Source: a virus. From it: a stretch of DNA of 20,583 bases. Location: positions 1 to 20,583 of IMG/VR virus record IMGVR_UViG_3300021959_000521; one strand, 5' to 3'. This document shows positions 3,326 through 17,570 of the stretch, piece after piece. The position numbers and the translations under genes were made by a program. Each line of letters begins with the position of its first letter. Within the stretch, counting starts at the first letter, position 1. A model generated the notes under the pieces. The model saw only the letters and a program-made list of their open reading frames with translations. It ran no database searches and was not told the origin of the DNA.

Positions 3326-5128
3326 GTGGCAAAGCAGCAATATCTTGGTATAGAAATCGATCTCTCTCGTGATGAACTCTTCGACAAATTAGGAATCCAA
3401 AGACTTAAAGAATCATATATGCGAGACGACGAAGAGTCGCCTCAACATCGATTCGCTTTTGTCTCTCAAAAATTCTCTTCAAACCCTGAGCACGCTCAAC
3501 GTCTCTACGAATACTCTTCTAAACACTGGTTATCCTACTCTACCCCTATCCTCGCGTATGGGCGCACGGGAAAGGGTATGCCAATCTCTTGCTTCCTCAA
3601 CTTCATCGAGGATACAGCTGAAGGATTGGTGAGCAACCTATCCGAGACTAACTGGTTGTCTATGATGGGTGGTGGTGTAGGGATCGGTTTTGGTATTCGT
3701 TCTTCTGACGATAAGTCCACTGGTGTAATCCCGCACCTTAAAACCTATGACGCTTCTTCCCTTGCTTATCGTCAGGGTAAGACTCGGCGTGGTTCATATG
3801 CAGCATACCTCGATATCTCTCACCCAGACGTGATTGAGTTTCTTGAAATGCGCAAACCAACAGGCGACCAAAATCGCCGTTGTTTAAACTTGCATCATGG
3901 TATCAATATCAGCGATCGGTTCATGGAGTTGATTGAACGTTGTATGCAAGACGCCGACGCAGATGATGGTTGGAATCTAATTGATCCGCACTCAGGCGAA
4001 ATCCGCGATACTATTTCAGCAAAGTCTCTGTGGCAGAAGATTCTGGAACTACGCATGGAGACAGGCGAACCATACCTGCACTTCATCGATACCAGCAATC
4101 GTATGATGCCTGCTTTTCAAAAAGAACTGGGATTAAAGATTCATCAGTCTAATCTTTGTTCAGAAATTATCCTGCCAACTAATGAAGAACGAACTGCTGT
4201 TTGTTGTCTTTCTTCAGTAAACCTCGAGCACTATGATGCTTGGAGCAAGAACGAATTGTTTTTGAAAGACATGGCAGAGATGTTGGACAACGTGTTGCAA
4301 TTTTTTATTGACAACGCGCCAGATACAGTTGCTCGTGCTAAGTTCTCCGCAATGCGAGAGCGTTCGATCGGTATCGGTGCCCTTGGGTTTCATGCTTATC
4401 TACAAAAGAAAAACCTACCATGGGATTGTGCCATGGCAAAGGTTACTAACAACAGGATATTTTCTCTCATCCGGAGGAAACTCGATGAAGCAAACCTCGA
4501 GATCGGAAAAGAAAGAGGAGAAGCACCAGACGCAGAAGGAACTGGAAAGAGATTTTCTCATGTTATGGCTGTTGCGCCTAATGCTAGTTCCTCTATCATT
4601 ATGGGCAATACTTCTCCTTCTATAGAACCTTGGCGAGCAAACGCATACCGTCAGGATACATTGTCTGGTTCACATTTAAATAAAAACCGATATTTGGATC
4701 AACTCATAAAAGCAAAAATTCAGTCGGGCGAAACAAAGCAAGACTATGATGAAATTTGGTCAAGCATTATTGCTAACGATGGTTCTGCTCAGCATCTTCG
4801 GTTTCTGACCCAAGAAGAAAAAGACGTATTCAAGACCTCTATGGAAATTGATCAACGTTGGGTTATTGAGCACGCTGCTGATCGGCAACAGTTTATCGAT
4901 CAAGCGCAGTCTTTGAATCTGTTCTTTAGACCAGACGCGAATATCGTTTACTTGCATGCTGTCCATTTCTTGGCGTGGAAGAAAGGGTTGAAGACTTTGT
5001 ACTATTGTCGCTCTGAAAAACTTGGAAAGGCAGATCGCGTTTCTAAGAAGATCGAAAGAGAAGCAATCAAAGAAATTGATATGGTTGCTATCGTTAATAA
5101 TGAAGAGTGTATCGCTTGCGAGGGATAA
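3326..5128 (+). CDS. nrdA: Class I ribonucleotide reductase large (alpha) subunit, without ATP cone
   Basis: NrdA reduces ribonucleoside diphosphates to deoxy forms with the radical-carrying NrdB. The catalytic set is complete. C89 (in PISCFLN) and C293 form the substrate-reducing pair. N276, C278 and E280 (in SNLCSEI) give the thiyl-radical site. Y559 and Y560 (TLYYC) continue the radical path from NrdB. The C-terminal CIACEG (C595, C598) is the shuttle pair re-reduced by glutaredoxin or thioredoxin. PNASSS near 418 is the phosphate-binding loop. The protein is 600 residues, against about 750 for E. coli and T4, because it begins directly in the catalytic region and lacks the N-terminal ATP cone, so dATP shut-off by that route is not expected. 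The start is GTG with AAGGA about 11 bases upstream. A 2OG oxygenase gene separates it from nrdB. Confidence 0.97.
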   Translation: MAKQQYLGIEIDLSRDELFDKLGIQRLKESYMRDDEESPQHRFAFVSQKFSSNPEHAQRLYEYSSKHWLSYSTPILAYGRTGKGMPISCFLNFIEDTAEGLVSNLSETNWLSMMGGGVGIGFGIRSSDDKSTGVIPHLKTYDASSLAYRQGKTRRGSYAAYLDISHPDVIEFLEMRKPTGDQNRRCLNLHHGINISDRFMELIERCMQDADADDGWNLIDPHSGEIRDTISAKSLWQKILELRMETGEPYLHFIDTSNRMMPAFQKELGLKIHQSNLCSEIILPTNEERTAVCCLSSVNLEHYDAWSKNELFLKDMAEMLDNVLQFFIDNAPDTVARAKFSAMRERSIGIGALGFHAYLQKKNLPWDCAMAKVTNNRIFSLIRRKLDEANLEIGKERGEAPDAEGTGKRFSHVMAVAPNASSSIIMGNTSPSIEPWRANAYRQDTLSGSHLNKNRYLDQLIKAKIQSGETKQDYDEIWSSIIANDGSAQHLRFLTQEEKDVFKTSMEIDQRWVIEHAADRQQFIDQAQSLNLFFRPDANIVYLHAVHFLAWKKGLKTLYYCRSEKLGKADRVSKKIEREAIKEIDMVAIVNNEECIACEG

Positions 5129-5131
5129 TTG

Positions 5132-5683
5132 GTGAGTGGTTATATTAAGGAAAGAATTCTTTCCGGTGATGAAATAAAAGAAGCACTAGAAATATACGAA
5201 AGTCTCTCTCCTGTTTTTTGGCATCAAAACTACAACTTGTTTGATGTTGAAAGAAGAGATGTTCCAACCCCACTACAATACGGTTTCTATAATACTTTGA
5301 AAAAGTATTCAAAGATGCCAGGAGATAAGGGGGCATATTTTTTAAAATATGAAAAAGATTCTTTTACAAGAATGCACGAAGACAACAACTCGGATTTGAC
5401 AATTGTTACTTTACTAAAAACAAAGGAGTTGGTTGGTGGAGAATCTTTAGTTAGAGCAGAGTATAAATTAAAGAGCAGACCAATGGGAAATCAGGTGGCG
5501 CGGCATTCTCGCGAACAAGATGCTCCCCCCTATGGTCAGCAAATTATAATGGATGTGGTGAAAGTTGATGATGGTGAAAGTTTAGTTTATGGTCCAAACT
5601 TGACTCATGGAGTGAGCAAAGTTTATGATGGTCATAGAATCGTACTAGTAACTTGGTTCAACAAAACAGAAAACAAAGGATAA
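5132..5683 (+). CDS. 2-oxoglutarate/Fe(II)-dependent oxygenase (P4H-like)
   Basis: The C-terminal half has the jelly-roll oxygenase signature. Numbering from an alternative TTG at 5129, H83 and D85 (MHEDNNS) and H160 (NLTHGVS) form the 2-His-1-carboxylate iron site, and R170 (GHRIVLVTWF) should bind 2-oxoglutarate. GGESLV near 103 is the strand typical of prolyl-4-hydroxylase-like members. The N-terminal 60 residues resemble the usual helical cap. I prefer GTG at 5132 because AGGGA (5121-5125) is well spaced from it. It is placed between nrdA and nrdB and is probably co-expressed with them. Marine T4-like phages carry many such enzymes; the substrate (protein, nucleotide or metabolite) cannot be told. 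Confidence 0.88.
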   Translation: MSGYIKERILSGDEIKEALEIYESLSPVFWHQNYNLFDVERRDVPTPLQYGFYNTLKKYSKMPGDKGAYFLKYEKDSFTRMHEDNNSDLTIVTLLKTKELVGGESLVRAEYKLKSRPMGNQVARHSREQDAPPYGQQIIMDVVKVDDGESLVYGPNLTHGVSKVYDGHRIVLVTWFNKTENKG

Positions 5684-5686
5684 TGC

Positions 5687-6664
5687 ATGCAACTATCAAT
5701 TACGGACAACAGGGATCACTTCAAACCTTTCAACTATCCATGGGCATATGATGCTTGGTTGAAACACGAGCAGTCTCATTGGTTACACACGGAAGTTCCA
5801 ATGGCAGAAGATGTAAAGGATTGGCAAAGAAAACTCACTATTGAAGAGCGAGCATTTTTGACCAATATTTTTCGATTTTTTACTCAGGGTGATATCGATG
5901 TTGCGGGTGGATATGTTTCGAACTATCTTCCTTATTTCCCACAACCAGAAGTTCGTATGATGCTTATGGGATTCGCCGCGAGAGAAGCACTCCACGTTGC
6001 TGCTTATTCGCATTTGATAGAGACCTTGGGTATGCCTGAGTCTACATACAACGAGTTCCTCGAGTACGAGGCAATGCGAGAGAAGCACGAGTATTTTCTA
6101 AACCTTTCCGCAAATAACGGCACCAAAGAATCTGTTGCTGCTAATATCGCCGCGTTCTCTGCCTTCACCGAAGGTATGCAACTGTTCAGTTCTTTCATCA
6201 TGCTACTCAACTTTCCGCGTCATGGTAAGATGAAGGGCATGGGACAGATTGTAACTTGGTCTATCGTCGACGAGACTATGCACGCCGAGTCTATGATCAA
6301 ACTATTCCGAACCTACATAGAAGAGAATATCGAGATTTGGAACGATCAGTTGAAATCAACGATCTACTCTATTGCAGAAAAGATGGTAGAACTCGAGGAC
6401 AAGTTTATCGATCTGGCGTTTGCCATGGGTCCAATGGAAGGACTTACTCAAGAAGAAGTTAAGGCATATATTCGGTACATCGCAGATCGTCGCCTTATCT
6501 CTTTGGGCATGAAGGGTATCTTTAAAGTGAAGAAGAACCCTTTACTTTGGGTCGAAGAAATGATTAACGCGCCAACACACACAAACTTTTTTGAGAACCG
6601 TGCTACAGATTATGCTCGCGGGGCATTAACTGGAGACTGGAAAGAGGTTTGGGGAGCGGCATAA
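5687..6664 (+). CDS. nrdB: Class I ribonucleotide reductase small (beta) subunit
   Basis: The 325-residue protein is the di-iron, radical-generating partner of NrdA. The metal ligands line up with E. coli NrdB: D69 (TQGDID), E100 and H103 (REALHVAAY), E161 (FTEGMQLF), and E195 and H198 (VDETMH). Y107 sits seven residues after E100, exactly where the radical tyrosine Y122 lies after E115 in E. coli, so a tyrosyl-radical class I enzyme is expected. The C-terminal tail, which docks to NrdA, is present (EVWGAA). AAAGGA precedes the ATG, and the gene is four bases from the upstream oxygenase. Length is slightly under E. coli NrdB, as is common in phages. All parts needed for activity appear intact. 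Confidence 0.97.
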   Translation: MQLSITDNRDHFKPFNYPWAYDAWLKHEQSHWLHTEVPMAEDVKDWQRKLTIEERAFLTNIFRFFTQGDIDVAGGYVSNYLPYFPQPEVRMMLMGFAAREALHVAAYSHLIETLGMPESTYNEFLEYEAMREKHEYFLNLSANNGTKESVAANIAAFSAFTEGMQLFSSFIMLLNFPRHGKMKGMGQIVTWSIVDETMHAESMIKLFRTYIEENIEIWNDQLKSTIYSIAEKMVELEDKFIDLAFAMGPMEGLTQEEVKAYIRYIADRRLISLGMKGIFKVKKNPLLWVEEMINAPTHTNFFENRATDYARGALTGDWKEVWGAA

Positions 6665-6665
6665 T

Positions 6666-7175
6666 TTGGAACCTAAATATTATGATAAACCAAACGCACA
6701 ATGGGGGACTTCTTACCAGACTATGCCCAAAAAATGGTTTGATGCTCTTCCCGATACTGACTATATCATGTCAGAAGCTCCTGGTAAATGGCACTCAGAA
6801 ATGAAAAGTCGAGTAGACTCCAGTACAGTCTATAGGCATTATGGTTGGTGCGATAAAGATAAAAAGACGTTCCCAAAAGTTTTTAAGGAGATGATGGAGT
6901 ACCATAAATGTATAAACATTTCTATGTTTATTGGACTTCACGAAGGGGCAAACTCTAGTCTTGGTTGGCACGTTGACAATTATGAGGTTTGGGCATTTAA
7001 CATACTTGGTGTCACAAAATGGACTTGGTTTGAGATTTCGGGGGCAGAAGGGCACCGAGGGGAAATAAGAGAACAAATAGTAGAACCTGGGCATATATTT
7101 TTTATGCCAAAAGGAGTTTCTCACAAGGTCGATGTTCTTTCTGACGAAAGAACATCAATAAGTATTATCGCATAA
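6666..7175 (+). CDS. JmjC/cupin-like Fe(II)-dependent oxygenase
   Basis: The 169-residue protein has a cupin fold signature. HVD at 102-104 (WHVDNYEVW) and H153 (PKGVSHKV) would hold iron, and the EPGHIFFMPKG strand (140-150) is the classic cupin second motif found in JmjC-like hydroxylases. Thr, Lys and Trp around 117-122 could bind 2-oxoglutarate. The N-terminal 80 residues form a helical/aromatic cap of unclear role. Translation probably begins at TTG 6666, two bases after the nrdB stop, with GGGAG about nine bases upstream; the next Met is at residue 20. It lies directly before the PqqA-like peptide gene. The substrate is unknown, and a functional link to that peptide is speculative. Confidence 0.8.
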   Translation: MEPKYYDKPNAQWGTSYQTMPKKWFDALPDTDYIMSEAPGKWHSEMKSRVDSSTVYRHYGWCDKDKKTFPKVFKEMMEYHKCINISMFIGLHEGANSSLGWHVDNYEVWAFNILGVTKWTWFEISGAEGHRGEIREQIVEPGHIFFMPKGVSHKVDVLSDERTSISIIA

Positions 7176-7186
7176 AGGGGAAAGGT

Positions 7187-7258
7187 ATGTGGAACAAACC
7201 AGAAGCAATCGTTATCCGTGCTGGGTTCGAAGTGACCATGTATTTTAGTGTACGGTAA
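7187..7258 (+). CDS. pqqA: PqqA-like precursor peptide (23 residues)
   Basis: This tiny open frame encodes a 23-residue peptide with nearly all the landmarks of PqqA, the ribosomal precursor whose Glu and Tyr side chains are cross-linked to build the redox cofactor pyrroloquinoline quinone. It starts MWNKP, has R11 and G13, then EVTMY at 15-19 with E15 and Y19 in the conserved ExxxY spacing, and ends in Arg at 23. From memory Klebsiella PqqA has the same length and the same E15/Y19 positions. AGGGGA lies about five bases before the ATG, and the gene is tightly packed between the JmjC-like oxygenase and the next gene. No radical-SAM PqqE, PqqD, PqqB or PqqC gene is present in the window. It may feed or decoy a host pathway, or the peptide may have a new use. 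Confidence 0.75.
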   Translation: MWNKPEAIVIRAGFEVTMYFSVR

Positions 7259-7261
7259 GAT

Positions 7262-7501
7262 ATGAAGCAGTCTATAAAAAAATGGTTACATGACGAGTGG
7301 GAGTTGACTATATTTTTCCCAGGAGAAACAGTAGAACAACCAGACGGAACCAAAGTATCCAAGGGAAACCCACAAACCTTTAAGGTTAAAAAAATTAAAA
7401 AAATATCCGAAACCCACTTTGTGTTTATTGACACAGAAGGTTGTAAAAATACATTCAAACTTTTACAACCTGTGGGTTATCATCTTAAAAAGGTGCTGTA
7501 A
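7262..7501 (+). CDS. Small phage protein, probably beta-rich
   Basis: The 79-residue product begins three bases after the PqqA-like stop and overlaps the next ATG by one base (TAATG), so the three genes are translationally coupled. It has alternating hydrophobic strands (LTIFF, FKVKKIKKI, HFVFID, FKLLQPVGYHLKK) and no catalytic residues or membrane segment that I can see. It looks like a small beta-barrel or SH3-like fold. From memory, comparable proteins occur in marine T4-like phages without known function. I checked whether it might be PqqD, the PqqA chaperone, and do not see the expected helical pattern. An extensive inverted-repeat structure lies in its 3' end (7411-7478). Confidence 0.65.
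   Translation: MKQSIKKWLHDEWELTIFFPGETVEQPDGTKVSKGNPQTFKVKKIKKISETHFVFIDTEGCKNTFKLLQPVGYHLKKVL
7411..7478 (+). repeat. Nested inverted repeats (possible RNA structure) before the nuclease gene
   Basis: AGGTTGTAAAA (7438-7448) pairs perfectly with TTTTACAACCT (7461-7471) over a 12-base loop. Immediately after it, GTGGGTT (7472-7478) pairs with AACCCAC (7411-7417), giving a second stem stacked on the 3' side. It lies inside coding sequence, 23 bases before the next ATG. It could tune coupling or transcript stability, or could be chance. Confidence 0.45.
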
Positions 7502-7932
7502 TGTTCGAATATAATTGCAAAGTAATAAAGGTTGTCGACGGAGACACGGTTGATGTTGATATCGATCTCGGGTTTGGCGTTTGGTTAAAGAAACAAAGGG
7601 TTAGACTCTATGGCATCGATACTCCAGAGTCTAGAACGAGAAACCTCGAAGAGAAAAAGTGTGGGTTGCTCGCAAAAGATTATCTGGTAAACTCTTTGGG
7701 TGAAGAAGCGGTTCTTCGAACTAGGAAAGACGGAAAGGGAAAGTATGGTCGAATCTTGGGAGAGTTTATCGTGTACGATGCTTCAAAAGACGCATATCGC
7801 CCCGTGAACGAAATTATGATTGAAAACAAACTCGGGGTTAGGTATTTCGGGCAATCAAAAGACGACATTGCTCAAGAGCATATAACTAATAGAGAATATC
7901 TGTACGAAACAGGAAAGATAGCGAGAGATTAA
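7501..7932 (+). CDS. Staphylococcal-nuclease-like (thermonuclease) enzyme
   Basis: The 143-residue protein matches the SNase/TNase family over its full length. VVDGDTVDVDIDLGFG (11-26) is the Ca-binding strand region, RVRLYGIDTPE (33-43) carries the catalytic R35, D40 and E43, and R84 (KYGRILGE) is the second catalytic Arg. These positions agree closely with R35, D40, E43 and R87 of the staphylococcal enzyme, so calcium-dependent phosphodiester hydrolysis is expected. There is no signal peptide, so it acts in the cytoplasm, perhaps degrading host DNA or RNA to feed the adjacent ribonucleotide reductase route, or processing phage DNA. It starts at ATG overlapping the upstream stop. Confidence 0.92.
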   Translation: MFEYNCKVIKVVDGDTVDVDIDLGFGVWLKKQRVRLYGIDTPESRTRNLEEKKCGLLAKDYLVNSLGEEAVLRTRKDGKGKYGRILGEFIVYDASKDAYRPVNEIMIENKLGVRYFGQSKDDIAQEHITNREYLYETGKIARD

Positions 7933-8060: not shown

Positions 8061-8488
8061 CTTGGCACTACGAAGGAAAAGTTTTTGACCCAGAATACGA
8101 ATCGCTCCAAGAATGGACAGGGTTTGTGTACGTCATAACTGAAATAGAAACAGGTATGAAGTATGTCGGCAAAAAATTTTTTCACAAAAAGAAAACACTG
8201 CCAGTGACTAAAAGTCGAAAGCGTAGGAAACATATGCGAGTAGAATCAGACTGGAAAGGTTATTTCGGTAGTTCTGAAGCGGTAAAACTTTTATTAGAAC
8301 AGAAAGGTGCCGATGCTTTCAAACGAGAAATAATCAGGTTGTGTAAAACCAAAGGTGACTGCTCGTACTACGAAGCAAAAGAGCAGTTCGATAGAGAAGT
8401 CCTTTTAAATGACGAATACTACAATGGAATTATAAATTGTCGTATCTCTAGAAAACACCTAAGTAGTAATGTTGATAATCCTATATAA
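8057..8488 (+). CDS. GIY-YIG-like endonuclease-related protein
   Basis: The product (143 residues from ATG 8057) has FVYVI (23-27) and KYVGKK (35-40), the two strands of a GIY-YIG nuclease core, followed by basic HKKK and KSRKRRKH stretches and a C-terminal Y/E-rich region (SYYEAKEQFDREVL). The ATG overlaps the zinc-ribbon stop. An in-frame TTG at 8027 would extend it by ten residues but lies inside the upstream gene. Many T4-like phages carry a conserved protein of this shape, often annotated as Seg-like or GIY-YIG endonuclease. A free-standing homing nuclease is possible, but the lack of an obviously interrupted neighbour and the coupled start suggest a resident phage function such as DNA processing. 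Confidence 0.7.
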   Translation: MTWHYEGKVFDPEYESLQEWTGFVYVITEIETGMKYVGKKFFHKKKTLPVTKSRKRRKHMRVESDWKGYFGSSEAVKLLLEQKGADAFKREIIRLCKTKGDCSYYEAKEQFDREVLLNDEYYNGIINCRISRKHLSSNVDNPI

Positions 8489-10702: not shown

Positions 10703-12256
10703 ATGAAATATTTGGGTATTAGTGGAGCACAACTCCACGATGCTGGCATGACGTTGATTGATGACCAAGGCAATATTGTCTTTGCGAGTCAGACAGAAAG
10801 ATTCACTCAAGTGAAGCACGATTCTAGAATCCCCTCTGGTTTGTGGGACTTATTGTATCACCCGAATAAAGGAGAAAACCTAATCGTTACAATGAATGAC
10901 GATTGGGAGGCGAGAGAAGAACTTCGTGGAGGTGAAGTTGCATTAACTCGGAAAAAGTTTCCTGATATTTTCAAATTGGATTGCCCTATACAGAACATAC
11001 ATCCTTCGATGTATACTCAAAAAATAAACGCAAAACCTACTGGGCACCATATTTCGCACGCATATGCTGCTTTTGCCACAAGACCAAAATCTTTCGATAA
11101 AGAAGATTGCGTTATTGTAACAATTGATGGTATTGGGGAGCATCGTTCTGGTGCAATTCTTGATCATAATTTTAATATTATTGAAGAGATAACATTCCCT
11201 AAATCTATCGGATATCTTTATGCTGCCTTTACAGAAGGTTGCGGACTCGGTTTGACCGCAAACGAAGATGAATATGTGATCATGGGATTGTCGAGTTATG
11301 GCGAACCTACTCATACTGAAAAAACTTATGAGATGTTTAGTTCTATTCCCGAATGGTTGATTGAAGAAGCAATACAAAAAAGGGAAGAAGGAAGTTACGT
11401 GAACTGGAAACATTTCTATGACTTAAAGTTAATGTACTTGCGAAAAATCGTACAGATGCTTATGAAAGAATGTAAATCTGTAGAGGATGCAGCTGCATCT
11501 CTTCAAGCATGTACAACCCTCGTTATTTTAGAGTTTATGAAAAAGGCAAGAAAGTACGGAAGCAAACTTTGCTATTCCGGCGGAGTTGCACAGAATATTG
11601 TCACAAATAATGAGGTGAGCAAACTATTTGACGATATGTGGGTAGATTTGAATCCTGGAGATGGAGGTGCTAGTCTCGGTGCAGCTGCTTTTTCTTATAT
11701 GAGAGATACTGGCAAGGATAGAATTAATTGGGAACACCCTTATCTTGGTCACTGTATCGAAGGAGACTTAGACCCAGAAATGGTTGTTGATCATCTCCTC
11801 AAAGAGCGATATTGCGGAGTCGCAAACGGTCCAGCAGAGTTTAGTTATCGTGCATATGGAAACCGATCACTTATTGCAGATGTTAGATTCGATGTTAAAG
11901 ATACAGTTAACATGGTAAAACGTAGGCAGAAATATCGACCTTTCGCTCCTGCTATTTTAGAAGAACATGCAGCAGATTATTTCGAAGGACCAATGAATCG
12001 ATGGATGCAATATGCTGCTAAGGCAAAACACCAGTATTCTTCTGTTACTCATGTCGATGGTACTGGTCGCGTACAATTAGTGCCAAAAGATTCGAAATCG
12101 GTTTTTCGGAAAATAATTGAATGCTATTATGAAAGAACTGGTGTGCCTATGTTGTTAAACACTTCTTTGAATATTCGACGCATGCCGATGGTTAATACTG
12201 TTGAACACGCTGCTCAGTTTGAACGAAAATATGGGGTAAAGGTTTTTACATCATAA
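10703..12256 (+). CDS. NodU/TobZ-type O-carbamoyltransferase
   Basis: The 517-residue protein has the two-domain layout of this family. The N-terminal ASKHA/TsaD-like domain shows LGISGAQLHDAGMTLI at the start, the metal-binding HHISHAYAAF (H115, H116, H119), DGIGEHRSGAI (142-152) and a SGGVAQN motif near 290. The C-terminal domain shows YRAYGNRSLIADVR, YRPFAPAILEEHAADYF and PMLLNTSLNIRRMP. These enzymes make carbamoyl-AMP and transfer the carbamoyl group to a hydroxyl, usually on a sugar. It opens the nine-gene sugar-modification cassette, which suggests a glycan acceptor. It is somewhat shorter than many family members but keeps both domains. Confidence 0.92.
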   Translation: MKYLGISGAQLHDAGMTLIDDQGNIVFASQTERFTQVKHDSRIPSGLWDLLYHPNKGENLIVTMNDDWEAREELRGGEVALTRKKFPDIFKLDCPIQNIHPSMYTQKINAKPTGHHISHAYAAFATRPKSFDKEDCVIVTIDGIGEHRSGAILDHNFNIIEEITFPKSIGYLYAAFTEGCGLGLTANEDEYVIMGLSSYGEPTHTEKTYEMFSSIPEWLIEEAIQKREEGSYVNWKHFYDLKLMYLRKIVQMLMKECKSVEDAAASLQACTTLVILEFMKKARKYGSKLCYSGGVAQNIVTNNEVSKLFDDMWVDLNPGDGGASLGAAAFSYMRDTGKDRINWEHPYLGHCIEGDLDPEMVVDHLLKERYCGVANGPAEFSYRAYGNRSLIADVRFDVKDTVNMVKRRQKYRPFAPAILEEHAADYFEGPMNRWMQYAAKAKHQYSSVTHVDGTGRVQLVPKDSKSVFRKIIECYYERTGVPMLLNTSLNIRRMPMVNTVEHAAQFERKYGVKVFTS

Positions 12257-12271
12257 CCCTTTGGTATCATT

Positions 12272-13060
12272 ATGAAACGTTTAATTTATCAAGTATCTGT
12301 TGGGAAACCTTCTCAACTCTATAAGCATTGCATAGAATCTGTTGCCGCTTATTGCGAAAAGTACGGCATTGATCATGTCGTACAGAAAACTCCAATCTTA
12401 AGAATCAAACCAGATATCTTTGTAACTAATCGCTCCGTAGAGTCGTACGAAAAGCACGGAGGATTTTTGCCAATATATGAAAAAGAAAACGCATTTGATT
12501 ATTTTGCGAAAGGTTATGATCAAATTGCAATCATAGATGCCGACATCTATGTTCGTTCGGAAGCACCGAATATTTTTGAAGACTTTGGCACAGAACATGA
12601 CTTTGGTGCATGCGTCGAACGAGACATGCCAATCTCTGGTGCATACGCCATGAAGATAAAGAACTACTCCAATATGCAGTATGCTAGTCTCGGTAATGTT
12701 GACTGGGACTGGCAAGACTGGGGTGCCAAATTTTATAATATGGGAATGATGATTATGAATAAGTCTATCGTTCCTTATTTCAAAGGACAAACCGCGAGAC
12801 AATTTTTAGGGCGACCCGAGTTTCAAAAATTTATTGATGGTATGGGAAACTGGAAATGGTCTACCGACCAAACACTTTTAAATTGGTGGGTGAAAAAAGA
12901 AGGTCTGAATATCAAAGATATGGACTGGAAATGGAACGCACTATATAAAGGTGTAAAGGACGAATATATCCCTGAGGCAAATTTCGTTCATTTCTTCTTG
13001 AAAGACAAGTTGCCAAATAGTGGGGAAAACGTCGAAGCATTGATGAAGGACATTGCGTAA
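12272..13060 (+). CDS. GT-A glycosyltransferase, GT8-like
   Basis: The 262-residue protein has a GT-A-type N-terminal half with IAIIDADIYV (86-94), whose D89-A-D91 is the metal/nucleotide-sugar binding DxD. GAYAMKIKN and a W-rich segment (VDWDWQDWGAKFYNMGMMIM) precede TDQTLLNWWV, which recalls the acceptor side of GT8-type transferases; the C-terminal NFVHFF matches the family's terminal His motif. It should transfer a sugar from a nucleotide donor. It follows the carbamoyltransferase and overlaps the sulfotransferase start by one base. Donor and acceptor are unknown. Confidence 0.8.
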   Translation: MKRLIYQVSVGKPSQLYKHCIESVAAYCEKYGIDHVVQKTPILRIKPDIFVTNRSVESYEKHGGFLPIYEKENAFDYFAKGYDQIAIIDADIYVRSEAPNIFEDFGTEHDFGACVERDMPISGAYAMKIKNYSNMQYASLGNVDWDWQDWGAKFYNMGMMIMNKSIVPYFKGQTARQFLGRPEFQKFIDGMGNWKWSTDQTLLNWWVKKEGLNIKDMDWKWNALYKGVKDEYIPEANFVHFFLKDKLPNSGENVEALMKDIA

Positions 13061-13752
13061 TGGTATTCGAGAATCAGAAAAGATTATTCATTCATATCCC
13101 CAAGTGTGCGGGAATGACAATACGCAAGAGTCCTCAACTTGCTCCTTATCTGGTTGTCGCAACTCCAAATAATCATAAGTCAGAGCAATACACAAAAGAA
13201 CTTCATAAAGCGATGAGGAAAAGTGGAGATCATCATGGTAATGAACACGCGAGATGGAGAGATATCAAACCAGCAGTCAGAAACTTATATCAAGCATTCG
13301 CCGTGGCACGCAATCCCTGGGACAGAGTTGTATCTCGTTACTTCTTTGCAAAGAAAGTCATTGAGGTTGAAAAGAAAGAACCAATTGGTAAGCACCGAAT
13401 CGACTCATTCGAGTCTTTCCTCGAGGAACGATTTGAGTGGGGCGGAAAGGATTATTATTGGCACCGCGCCATACGTGGTTGGTTTCCTGCTGTCGATCAC
13501 GTTTGCGATGCTAGTGGCAATCTTAAATGTGACATGATGAGATTTGAAAATCTCAACGAAGATCTTTGTGCATACTTCGATATTCCAGAAATGTCTCGAG
13601 CACGTAACGTCACCGATTTGAATAAAGGCACCTACCGAGATATTTACACCGACAAAACAATTCAGATCGTGGCAGACTGGTACAAAGAAGATATCGATTT
13701 CTTTGGGTATGACTTTGATACTGGCGCACAAAAGAACTATTGGAGAAAATAG
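13060..13752 (+). CDS. Carbohydrate-type sulfotransferase
   Basis: The 230-residue protein has both PAPS-binding signatures of the sulfotransferase superfamily. FIHIPKCAGMTI (10-21) is the 5'-phosphosulfate loop with K15, and AVARNPWDRVVSRYF (81-95) is the 3'-phosphate-binding segment with R83 and S92. The family-2 C-terminal pattern (IVADWYKEDIDFFGYDF) is also present. It should move sulfate from PAPS to a sugar hydroxyl. There is no membrane anchor, unlike Golgi enzymes of eukaryotes, so it acts in the cytoplasm on a soluble or lipid-linked acceptor. Placement among glycosyltransferases and a carbamoyltransferase supports a heavily decorated glycan product. Confidence 0.88.
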   Translation: MVFENQKRLFIHIPKCAGMTIRKSPQLAPYLVVATPNNHKSEQYTKELHKAMRKSGDHHGNEHARWRDIKPAVRNLYQAFAVARNPWDRVVSRYFFAKKVIEVEKKEPIGKHRIDSFESFLEERFEWGGKDYYWHRAIRGWFPAVDHVCDASGNLKCDMMRFENLNEDLCAYFDIPEMSRARNVTDLNKGTYRDIYTDKTIQIVADWYKEDIDFFGYDFDTGAQKNYWRK

Positions 13753-13754
13753 TT

Positions 13755-14360
13755 ATGATGGGATCTACTACAAACAGAGATTCAAAAGATATTCTCTATC
13801 TTGTGAAAGAGGGAACCGTTGGTGCAGAGATCGGGGTGTGGATGGGAAACACTTCTATAAACTTTGCAAATAAAAACCCAGCAGAACTTCACCTTGTAGA
13901 TTCTTGGAGCATAGAACCATACAAAGAAAGTACGGAACATGGATCTTATGAAAACTATTTGCAACGGTATTCTAGTGTTTGTGGCGGGAATACTGAAGAG
14001 CAGTTTCAGCAAAAATACGATTCGGTCTATAGAGGAGTCGTAAAGAGGTTTAAAGAACTATCTAACGTACATATACACCGAATGTCTTCAGACGAGTGGT
14101 TCGACCAACGAGAAGAAAACTCTCTAGATTGGATCTACGTTGACGGAGATCATTCATATGAAGGTTGCCTGCGCGACTTAGAAAACTCTTTTAGAGTTGT
14201 TAAATCAGGCGGACTGATTCTAGGCGACGACTATCAGTGGCCATTTCAAAAACACGGCAAGGCAGGTGTAACTGCTGCTGTTGACGAATTTGTGAAGAAG
14301 TATAATTTGAAAATAATTCAGGAAGGTGCAACAACACAATTCAGTATAGAGGTTCTATAG
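13755..14360 (+). CDS. SAM-dependent methyltransferase (Methyltransf_24-like)
   Basis: From ATG 13755, with GGAG about nine bases upstream, the product has 201 residues. GTVGAEIGVWMGNTS near the start is motif I of a class I methyltransferase, binding S-adenosylmethionine. SLDWIYVDGDHSYEGCLRDLE is the metal-coordinating acidic motif seen in sugar and catechol-type methyltransferases, followed by VKSGGLILGDDY. This subfamily often methylates sugar or small-molecule hydroxyls, which fits the surrounding genes. An in-frame TTG at 13740 lies inside the upstream gene and is less likely. The stop overlaps the next GTG by one base. Confidence 0.86.
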   Translation: MMGSTTNRDSKDILYLVKEGTVGAEIGVWMGNTSINFANKNPAELHLVDSWSIEPYKESTEHGSYENYLQRYSSVCGGNTEEQFQQKYDSVYRGVVKRFKELSNVHIHRMSSDEWFDQREENSLDWIYVDGDHSYEGCLRDLENSFRVVKSGGLILGDDYQWPFQKHGKAGVTAAVDEFVKKYNLKIIQEGATTQFSIEVL

Positions 14361-14923
14361 TGCACCCTTCTTCTAGAGAAAATATGAAGAGGGCGAGAGA
14401 CCTTTTAGGTTCTCGACTCGGTAGTGGGTTGACGATACTAGACCTTGGCGGTAGAAATATAAAACCTGGACAAGACCGCACTTATCGACCAATATTCGAA
14501 GATGTTTGCGAAAACTATTACATCGCAGATATAAACGAGGGTGGTAATGTTACTCACAAAATGCCTGGACCGTATGAGTTACCTTTTGAAGACAATTCGA
14601 TAGACTTTATTGTATCGGGGCAAACATTTGAGCATATCTACAATCCATTTAGGGCAGCAGCAGAATTGACTCGAGTTCTCAAACCAGAGCATTACATGGT
14701 GATTATCGCACCTTCTAGTGGACCCACTCACGACAACCCAGACTGTTGGCGATTTTATAGAGACTCGTTTAAAGCAATTGCAAAAGAGTGCGACTTAAAG
14801 GTGATTGCTGATTGGATTGATGATGGTAAAGAATGGGAACAAAGTCCGGATGCTCAGTGGATATCTCCTGGAGTTGAACGCTCTGCTCGTTGGAAAGATC
14901 ACGTATTCATAGGGCAAAAATGA
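14360..14923 (+). CDS. SAM-dependent methyltransferase (Methyltransf_11-like)
   Basis: The 187-residue protein starts at GTG sharing a base with the upstream stop. TILDLGGRN (about 25-33) is motif I, YIADINEGG (about 54-62) carries the acidic residue for the SAM ribose, PFEDNSIDFIVSGQTFEHI (about 75-93) is the motif II/III region, and LKPEHYMVIIAPSSG follows. It is unrelated in detail to the preceding methyltransferase (different motif I and no DGDHSY), so the cassette has two distinct methylation activities. The target is probably a sugar, by context. Its stop overlaps the next ATG (ATGA). Confidence 0.86.
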   Translation: MHPSSRENMKRARDLLGSRLGSGLTILDLGGRNIKPGQDRTYRPIFEDVCENYYIADINEGGNVTHKMPGPYELPFEDNSIDFIVSGQTFEHIYNPFRAAAELTRVLKPEHYMVIIAPSSGPTHDNPDCWRFYRDSFKAIAKECDLKVIADWIDDGKEWEQSPDAQWISPGVERSARWKDHVFIGQK

Positions 14924-15642
14924 GAGCATATATCATCACAATGAGCGACAATGATTCTTCTGTGAGTAGAGCAGAGGTTGCCGCTGAATCTGTGAAAGAA
15001 CATTGCGCGAATATCGCTGTTGAGTTCTTTGAAGCGACACAACCGAAAAATATATATAATCATACAGGGGAAGTATTTGGCAAACAGGTTCCTTGGACAT
15101 GGCCAAGTTCTCCTAACCAAGACGGATTAGATTTAACGACTGGGTTGTATAAGAAATACTATCCAGCAAAAGCACAAGATCGAGTAGTTGCTTGCGCATT
15201 AAGTCACTATCGATTATGGAAGTTATGTGCTGAACAAGAAGGACCAATTCTTGTTCTTGAGCACGATGCAAGGTTCGTGAGGGAATTCTCTGTTGAGGAT
15301 CTCTCCGACAAATGGGGCGCAGTCGGGTTGAATGACCCGCGAGGTAATACGCGCAAGGGACGATTGTTCCATAGTTTAATCGAGAAGTACGGGGAGGGAA
15401 TTCAACGAGTACCCGTCATCGATGAACCGACTGACCCACCTCTACCGATGGGAATCGCTGGAAACAGCGCATACATCATTAAACCTTATTTTGCCAAGAA
15501 ACTTTTGGAAGAGGTGGAGAGAGTTGGAATGTGGCCAAACGACGCTATTATGTGTCGTCAACTATTTCCAACTGATCTAAAGGTTGTCTATCCATACTAC
15601 ACCGTAGTGCAATCAGGAGTATCGACAACCACAGGAATTTGA
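14920..15642 (+). CDS. GT25-family glycosyltransferase, first paralogue
   Basis: The start is ATG 14920, overlapping the methyltransferase stop; the product has 240 residues. MRAYIITMSD opens the domain. ACALSHYRLWKL (about 91-102) and GPILVLEHDARFV (about 108-120) are the two diagnostic GT25 motifs, the second replacing the usual EDD with EHD. GIAGNSAYIIKPYFAKKLL matches the C-terminal A-Y-motif. GT25 enzymes add galactose or similar sugars in lipooligosaccharide biosynthesis. A second, shorter GT25 follows directly, so this is a tandem paralogous pair. Confidence 0.88.
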   Translation: MRAYIITMSDNDSSVSRAEVAAESVKEHCANIAVEFFEATQPKNIYNHTGEVFGKQVPWTWPSSPNQDGLDLTTGLYKKYYPAKAQDRVVACALSHYRLWKLCAEQEGPILVLEHDARFVREFSVEDLSDKWGAVGLNDPRGNTRKGRLFHSLIEKYGEGIQRVPVIDEPTDPPLPMGIAGNSAYIIKPYFAKKLLEEVERVGMWPNDAIMCRQLFPTDLKVVYPYYTVVQSGVSTTTGI

Positions 15643-15644
15643 TA

Positions 15645-16286
15645 ATGAAAGGTTATGTGATCACAATTAGTTCTATAGAGCAATCCTTACAGGCAGCAGA
15701 GCGTTGTATTCGTTCTGCTGGTAGGGTTGGATTTGAGGTAGAAAAGTTCGAAGCAACTACACCAGAGGATAACCCTGGAGAATTCCTCTCAAAAGAAGGA
15801 ATAGGAACCAGAGGGTTTGTTGAAGAGTATTCTCGCTTTGACAACTGTATTGCCGCTTTCACTTCTCATTATAGACTTTGGAAAAAATCAGTAGAAGATA
15901 AAGAAACTCTTCTTGTTCTAGAACATGATGCATATTTTGTAGACCAGATTCCTAATGTTCAATTTGATGGGGTATTGTCTTTTGGGCGTCCTTCTTATGG
16001 TAGATGGATAGCACCCAGCACACTAGGCAAAAATAAACTCATATCAAAGCAATATCTTCCAGGTGCGCACGCATATGCAGTGACGCCAAAAGCAGCAGAA
16101 AAATTAATTGAAAAGGCGAAGGTTGCCGCTGCGCCGACTGACATATTCATAAACAACAACAACTTTGACTTTATAGAAGAATACTATCCTTGGCCGGTAG
16201 AGGCACGCGACTCATTTTCTACCATACAAAAAGAACTGGGTTGTCAAGCAAAACACAACTACAGCGAGGCATATGAATTGATATGA
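15645..16286 (+). CDS. GT25-family glycosyltransferase, second paralogue
   Basis: The start is ATG 15645 (a TTG at 15639 is inside the upstream gene), giving 213 residues. It shares with the preceding gene the order GYVITIS, AFTSHYRLWKK (about 71-81), LLVLEHDAYFV (about 89-99) and GAHAYAVTPKAAEKL, again with EHD in place of EDD. Divergence elsewhere is high, so donor or acceptor specificity probably differs. It most likely adds another sugar to the same glycan. The TGA overlaps the ATG of the next gene (ATGA), indicating coupled translation. Confidence 0.88.
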   Translation: MKGYVITISSIEQSLQAAERCIRSAGRVGFEVEKFEATTPEDNPGEFLSKEGIGTRGFVEEYSRFDNCIAAFTSHYRLWKKSVEDKETLLVLEHDAYFVDQIPNVQFDGVLSFGRPSYGRWIAPSTLGKNKLISKQYLPGAHAYAVTPKAAEKLIEKAKVAAAPTDIFINNNNFDFIEEYYPWPVEARDSFSTIQKELGCQAKHNYSEAYELI

Positions 16287-16951
16287 ATTACTTTGTAACT
16301 GGTTGTGATAAAAACACAGAATGGCAATTACCATGGTTCACCAAAAACTTTCACAAACATTGCGACGACGAACTAGTTATCGCAGACTTTGGACTTTCGC
16401 CAGAAGGTAAGAAGTTTGCAAAGGAAAATTGTAATTTTGTGGTTGGCGTTCAGTCAAACGGTTGGTTTTCCAAAGTAGAAACGATGTGGAAGATGAAGCA
16501 TTGGTTCCAAGGAAAATACTGTTGGGTTGATACTGACTGCGAGATCATGGCAGACCCTTCAGGTATCTTTAACTATGTTGAGCATAATAAACTTACTGCT
16601 GTGATAGATCATCCTTGGACTGCCAATGGGTCTCCTTGGACACCACAGGGAAATTGTGGTCCGTGGTACAACACTGGCGTGGTTGCGTTTGAAGGGAGAC
16701 CTATTATCCTAGAACACTGGTTTAATGAGGTGAAAAAAGAAGGCATCCACAGAGGAGATCAAGAAGCATTGTATTGGTTGTTGAATCAGGACGCCATGAA
16801 CCGCGTTATACATATTTCAGAAGCACCGCATCGCTTTAATGTTTTGCGATTGGATATTCTACAAGAGAGGGTTCCGTCTAAGCAAATTATAAAACACTGG
16901 ACGGGACAGAAAGGTAAAGAAGAAATTCGTAGACAATTGAATCATGACTAA
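16283..16951 (+). CDS. Glycosyltransferase with DxD motif
   Basis: The 222-residue protein has a GT-A-like layout: an N-terminal nucleotide-binding half ending in KYCWVDTDCEIM (79-89) with D83-T-D85 as the metal-binding DxD, a GNCGPWYNTGVVAFEG segment typical of the acceptor face, and HRGDQEALYWLLNQ, like the EQ/DQ helix of GT8/GT32-type enzymes. C-terminal IKHWTGQKG supplies the terminal His. I place it in the GT8/GT32/GT24-like group but cannot choose the family. It overlaps its neighbours on both sides. Confidence 0.78.
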   Translation: MNYFVTGCDKNTEWQLPWFTKNFHKHCDDELVIADFGLSPEGKKFAKENCNFVVGVQSNGWFSKVETMWKMKHWFQGKYCWVDTDCEIMADPSGIFNYVEHNKLTAVIDHPWTANGSPWTPQGNCGPWYNTGVVAFEGRPIILEHWFNEVKKEGIHRGDQEALYWLLNQDAMNRVIHISEAPHRFNVLRLDILQERVPSKQIIKHWTGQKGKEEIRRQLNHD

Positions 16952-17570
16952 GAAAGTTTATATTTTAGGCAATGGCGACATGGCACAAATGATGCCAGAG
17001 TCCGTTAGATACAAGAGAGAAGGCAAACTTATAATTTGCAACCAACCTCCGTTTGAAGTACAAAATGTGTACGCGACTTGTATTGTCGACTTTAAAATGA
17101 TGGCAGCATTGACCGAAGGTTCTATAAACCTTGACGCATACTATTGGGTTTGCGGTAATCGTCCTAAAGCGTGGATGGATTCTCGTCCTAGTTTTTATAT
17201 GATGAAGTCAGCGCAGATAAGAGAGTTCTATACGCACGTCCCTAGTTATGCCGGAAAGGGCAATCAAGGCGCAACAAACTTTAATTGCGGGCACATGGCG
17301 ACACATTACGTTTCTACTAGACACAAACCTGACGAGATTCATATGTTTGGGTTTGACTCTATCTTTGACCACAACATGAGGTCTTATACTGATACCGTCT
17401 TGAGCAGTGATCGAACTGGCAGAAACAACCTTCGCCTGCTCGACATTTGGCGTCCTATCTGGGCAAATATCTTTAACGAGTTCAAGCACATTAAATTTTT
17501 CCTGTACCACAAGCATCCGAACTCAAAAATACAAACACCTCCAAACGTAGAATTTGTAACTAAAATGTAA
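16944..17570 (+). CDS. Sialyltransferase (GT42)- or DUF115-like protein
   Basis: The 208-residue protein starts KKVYILGNGDM, a glycine-rich first strand like those of bacterial sialyltransferases and DUF115 proteins, followed by ICNQPPF near residue 30. The middle has GNQGATNFNCGHMATHY (about 106-122) and DEIHMFGFDSIFD (about 129-141), which match the N-S-G...A...K...I..G.D pattern of that group. No DxD is present, as expected for a GT-B or GT42 fold. It would act on nucleotide-activated sugar, perhaps capping the glycan. The call is by pattern resemblance only. It is the last gene of the cassette; a repeated promoter unit follows its stop directly. Confidence 0.55.
   Translation: MTKKVYILGNGDMAQMMPESVRYKREGKLIICNQPPFEVQNVYATCIVDFKMMAALTEGSINLDAYYWVCGNRPKAWMDSRPSFYMMKSAQIREFYTHVPSYAGKGNQGATNFNCGHMATHYVSTRHKPDEIHMFGFDSIFDHNMRSYTDTVLSSDRTGRNNLRLLDIWRPIWANIFNEFKHIKFFLYHKHPNSKIQTPPNVEFVTKM

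Follow-up and report, generated by a model that had tools for sequence, protein, structure and literature searches.

PqqA is the single-use precursor of PQQ: PqqE, acting with PqqD, joins a Glu and a Tyr of the peptide, its other residues being discarded. PqqA binds PqqD, and one PqqA is spent for each PQQ made, while the enzymes of the pathway are catalytic. In Methylophilaceae cells, lone pqqA copies lie away from pqqBCDE, and 3–12 pqqA genes have been counted alongside one pqqBCDE set (PMC4109929). A virus-encoded PqqA is also already known: the T4-like Lake Baikal phage VP_266 encodes the peptide, which was proposed to be an auxiliary metabolic gene product (Coutinho et al., 2020; PMC7678222), and a 2026 listing of genes from reservoir viruses includes pqqA, pqqD, and pqqE (PMC13188868). 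The case described here is a much broader instance. Like VP_266, the marine phage analyzed here is T4-like and encodes PqqA; its pqqA, however, sits in an nrd block and belongs to a different phage lineage. In addition, the VP_266 report pairs PqqA with a methanol dehydrogenase of the phage, whereas 50 whole records searched here contained no PQQ-dependent alcohol dehydrogenase, so that a link to such dehydrogenases rests on the host.

The window (the whole stretch of viral DNA that was analyzed, 20,583 bp) contains a single PqqA match (E 4.2e-8 within the record), the pqqA gene at positions 7187–7258 of the plus strand. Its translation is MWNKPEAIVIRAGFEVTMYFSVR, 23 codons that are followed by TAA, and the ribosome-binding site aaaggggaaaggt (7174–7186, plus strand) lies immediately 5′ of the ATG. 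The peptide scores above the cut-offs of both curated models, TIGR02107 (31.4 bits, cut-off 20, E 1.2e-7, with the whole model, 1–21, covered) and PF08042 (24.4 bits, cut-off 21.1, E 2.9e-5), and a first-pass annotation, which had called a PqqA-like peptide with a good ribosome-binding site, was right on both points. The peptide shares with cellular PqqA its length, the W-x-K-P start, G13, and E15-V-T-x-Y19, and thus has the E-x-x-x-Y spacing that cross-linking needs; Glu15 and Tyr19 correspond to the residues that PqqE cross-links in known PqqA. It differs from cellular PqqA in being virus-encoded and in its sequence, the closest of the sampled cellular peptides being 64% identical. The divergence lies in residues 6–12, with Val instead of the Glu or Asp of the viral consensus at residue 9 and Ala instead of Phe or Leu at residue 12. 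PHROGs has no family for the peptide, and no solved structure matches it. All six copies of this exact lineage are identical in DNA and keep both Glu15 and Tyr19, and the gene is conserved in L133, L134, L401, L442, and L478. Positions 7187–7258 are a genuine, selected PqqA-type gene in a phage.

The gene is located behind nrdA (3326–5128), a gene for a 2OG-Fe(II) oxygenase-like protein (5129–5683; slightly under the Pfam cut-off), nrdB for the small subunit of class Ia ribonucleotide reductase (5687–6664, plus strand), and a gene for a JmjC_2/cupin-like oxygenase (6666–7175, plus strand; 25.3 bits, cut-off 22), a diverged homologue of which occupies the same place in L401. Both the adjacent JmjC-like oxygenase and the placement in the nrd block had been proposed from the sequence, and both are borne out. 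Downstream, orf79 (7262–7501, plus strand), which encodes a 79-residue protein without a family, starts 3 bases past the pqqA stop codon and is followed by a gene for an SNase-like nuclease (7501–7932, plus strand) and a SegE GIY-YIG endonuclease-like gene (8063–8488; Pfam, 117.8 bits); a phoH gene is also among the neighbors. The PHROG 447 label of 8063–8488, NAD synthetase, seems wrong in view of the Pfam match.

A 368-bp block (7186–7553, with no strand assigned) that contains pqqA and orf79 is 100% identical to L401 and begins with the base that precedes the ATG of pqqA. L442 and L478 agree with L401 around pqqA. The genes that flank the block are about 86–96% identical between the window and the L401 lineage. 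Relatives whose NrdB is 88–90% identical retain the order nrdA–oxygenase–nrdB–(cupin)–segE–orf150–phoH and lack both pqqA and orf79, and pqqA occurs anywhere in the record in only one of 50 nrd-related records, which indicates that this group of phages can do without it. The identical block, its diverged flanks, and its absence from most nrd relatives make pqqA–orf79 look like a cassette that was recently gained or exchanged, probably through recombination in a variable stretch that follows nrdB. Synteny with nrdB, which had been suggested as a check, is seen in the lineage of the window and, in a different arrangement, in L471, but is not general among viral pqqA genes.

Two window proteins have relatives in marine phages of the T4-like kind, among them Melnitz, HTVC008M, and Phage C48C1; the statement in the first-pass annotation that PqqA-like peptides are annotated in some such phages is consistent with Melnitz and with the window. 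A search for the T4 portal protein in an 84-kb relative (IMGVR_UViG_3300021960_000047) gave no match, and the positive control was likewise unmatched. No tRNA was found in the window. At 10703–17570, carbamoyltransferase, sulfotransferase-family, and methyltransferase genes stand in a row with unassigned genes that are glycosyltransferase-like; together they may form a block for glycan or nucleotide modification.

Searches of phage records and, with DNA patterns, of IMG/VR recovered in all at least 251 intact viral PqqA copies in at least 250 loci (a lower bound), which form at least 57 context clusters when grouped by shared neighboring genes; an SD-like motif precedes 228 of 230 copies among the matches listed. 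When the window peptide was compared by tblastn with 50,697 phage records, 12 were hit, and three other viral PqqA types recovered the same 12 records. Nine are from Methylophilaceae/OM43 phages (MEP401, MEP402, MEP301, Venkman, P19250A, and four records of Melnitz); the others are one spring-water podovirus and two Acinetobacter contigs. One of these contigs, the record of Acinetobacter ‘phage MD-2021a’ (L004, CAKLQF020000010.1), carries ppk and pqqABCDE, looks like a bacterial chromosome, and was excluded.

The cultured OM43/LD28 phages (Melnitz, Venkman, MEP301, MEP401/402, and P19250A) resemble the window in having a lone, intact pqqA with an SD motif, but their PqqA is nearer to that of the Methylophilaceae hosts, and the genomic neighborhoods differ. 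Every cultured Methylophilaceae phage met in the analysis carries pqqA, and none of these genes is annotated as PqqA in its record. The publications that describe MEP301, MEP401/402, and Melnitz are silent on PqqA (where ‘pqq’ occurs for Melnitz, it refers to PQQ as a supplement of the growth medium), and no description of the spread of phage PqqA or of its presence in cultured methylophages was found in a search of openly available literature. Gene callers easily overlook a gene of 23 codons; that it is missing from published methylophage genomes or is labeled ‘hypothetical’ there is in keeping with this.

Conservation was counted in a scan that required only residues 2–14, and patterns that fixed Glu15 and Tyr19 were left out as biased. 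Both residues are retained in all 124 matches listed, and four of these (L479, L480, L481, and L495) have Ile in place of Val16 (EITMY for EVTMY). The same scan disclosed no decayed frame among the matches listed, so that loss of the cross-linked residues and decay of the frame, which had been named as signs against the call, were looked for and are not seen. Over 214 distinct viral sequences, the pooled pN/pS is 0.30, and several synonymous codons are in use for the fixed PqqA residues, a sign of synonymous turnover. This pattern of substitution indicates that viral pqqA is under purifying selection as PqqA. With that ratio and its presence in isolates, the gene is what is expected of an auxiliary metabolic gene, an intact homologue of a host gene under purifying selection.

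Queries for PqqB, PqqC, PqqD, and PqqE found nothing in the 250 viral loci listed, which add up to 2.06 Mb; in the cellular loci that served as control, they detected PqqB in 38, PqqC in 35, PqqD in 23, and PqqE in 23. When 50 whole records were searched for each of PqqB and PqqE (many records are fragments, and six are complete phage genomes), none had a match above the cut-off, and one weak, partial radical-SAM-like match was obtained with PqqE. The early view of a phage PqqA with none of the other pathway genes is thus confirmed and extends to at least 250 virus loci. Viral pqqA lies outside the pqqABCDE operon that is usual, although not obligatory, for PqqA; this is not disqualifying, because lone pqqA copies are common in Methylophilaceae.

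Methylophilaceae and some related bacteria have the same peptide type as the main viral one. Three peptides are shared without change between viruses and Methylophilaceae, and one of these was found 58 times in cells. In a set of 23 Methylophilaceae-type genomes, picked for carrying the phage-type peptide and hence not a random sample, 21 have 2–12 pqqA genes each; the published range given above is independent of this set. Transcription of lone pqqA copies is reported for another methylotroph, in which higher PQQ production goes with higher pqqA expression (PMC9851590). Multiple lone pqqA genes beside one pqqBCDE set suggest that what these hosts increase is the supply of the consumable peptide, not that of the enzymes, and the phages appear to do alike. 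The expectation that likely hosts carry pqqBCDE thus holds for the Methylophilaceae phages; for the window phage, a PQQ-making host is presumed. NrdB was rejected as a pointer to that host, since the best phage match of the window NrdB is 67% identical and the best match among some 300 genomes sampled from the phylum is 54%.

These comparisons favor a genuine precursor that most likely supplies substrate to the PQQ enzymes of the host, a reading to which we assign a probability of about 0.7. The phage gene would be expressed as PqqA precursor peptide during infection, PqqD and PqqE of a PQQ-making host would cross-link Glu15 and Tyr19 of this peptide, and PQQ would be completed by peptidases of the host together with its PqqB and PqqC. 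Because one PqqA is used per PQQ and the enzymes are catalytic, a gene of 72 bases would suffice for the phage to raise or sustain the PQQ supply of the cell without carrying the pathway; where the enzymes are already present, supplying PqqA is the cheapest route to more PQQ. The cofactor would serve PQQ-dependent dehydrogenases, which in Methylophilaceae are the methanol dehydrogenases at the entry of energy and carbon metabolism, and the phage would presumably benefit. Substrate supply had been proposed in the first-pass annotation, and of the mechanisms considered it is the best supported by the sequence comparisons, since Glu15 and Tyr19 are conserved, some phage peptides equal those of hosts, and the hosts multiply pqqA alone; sequestration and reuse of the peptide, which had also been offered, appear less likely.

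If the phage peptide instead bound PqqD or PqqE, clogged the pathway, and shut down host oxidation, the known binding of PqqA to PqqD and the lack of the remaining pathway genes in the phage would both be explained. Such a decoy would not need both cross-linked residues, however, and the relaxation at Glu15 and Tyr19 that it predicts is not seen in the 124 matches listed; moreover, some phages encode exactly the working peptide of the host, and we regard a decoy as improbable. The peptide could also have been recruited as the substrate of another radical-SAM or phage enzyme, yielding a different modified peptide for signaling or antimicrobial action. The divergence of the window peptide in residues 6–12, the orf79 product that travels with pqqA in the identical block, and the oxygenase-like gene upstream would suit recruitment, and for the divergent window copy reuse is possible. 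As a general account it has little likelihood, given that no radical-SAM enzyme is seen in the window, that most viral copies are near to ordinary host PqqA, and that no partner gene is common to the at least 57 contexts.

Passive carriage of a host pqqA acquired by chance, with no function in the phage, would draw on the many lone copies available in Methylophilaceae and would account for the patchy presence among nrd relatives. It is very unlikely in the face of the pN/pS of 0.30, the intact frames in the scan described above, the SD motif in nearly all copies, and the occurrence of pqqA in phages of many unrelated groups. That the frame merely resembles PqqA by chance might be thought of a gene of only 23 codons, but the E value of 4e-8 in its own record, the exact conservation in its lineage, and hundreds of relatives leave that idea a negligible probability; conservation has already refuted it.

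Substrate supply to the host pathway, as preferred here, may have a wider form: a lone gene for a single-use precursor that is near-universal in Methylophilaceae phages, has been acquired and swapped many times independently as a minimal 72-base cassette, and lets phages control a cofactor pathway through its consumable substrate instead of an enzyme; the window would then show a T4-like phage doing likewise in a PQQ-making host. We consider this broader statement somewhat better than an even bet. Most auxiliary metabolic genes encode enzymes, whereas pqqA encodes the raw material of a cofactor, one peptide being used per molecule. If the statement is true, phages of some of the main marine methanol consumers would set the supply of the methanol-oxidation cofactor during infection, and the substrate-supply idea is directly testable in cultured OM43 phage–host pairs.

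Two pqqA genes, of the EMRFGF and ELRFGF forms, lie in tandem in a single phage record of 21,559 bp (L439:11629-11834), and pqqA is also present in very large virus contigs (L398, 265,895 bp; L400, 339,794 bp; and L374). PqqA in L398, L374, and L473 is of an alphaproteobacterial-looking type (GMEVTSY), and in L374 a radical-SAM-like protein is encoded about 2.6–3.2 kb from pqqA.
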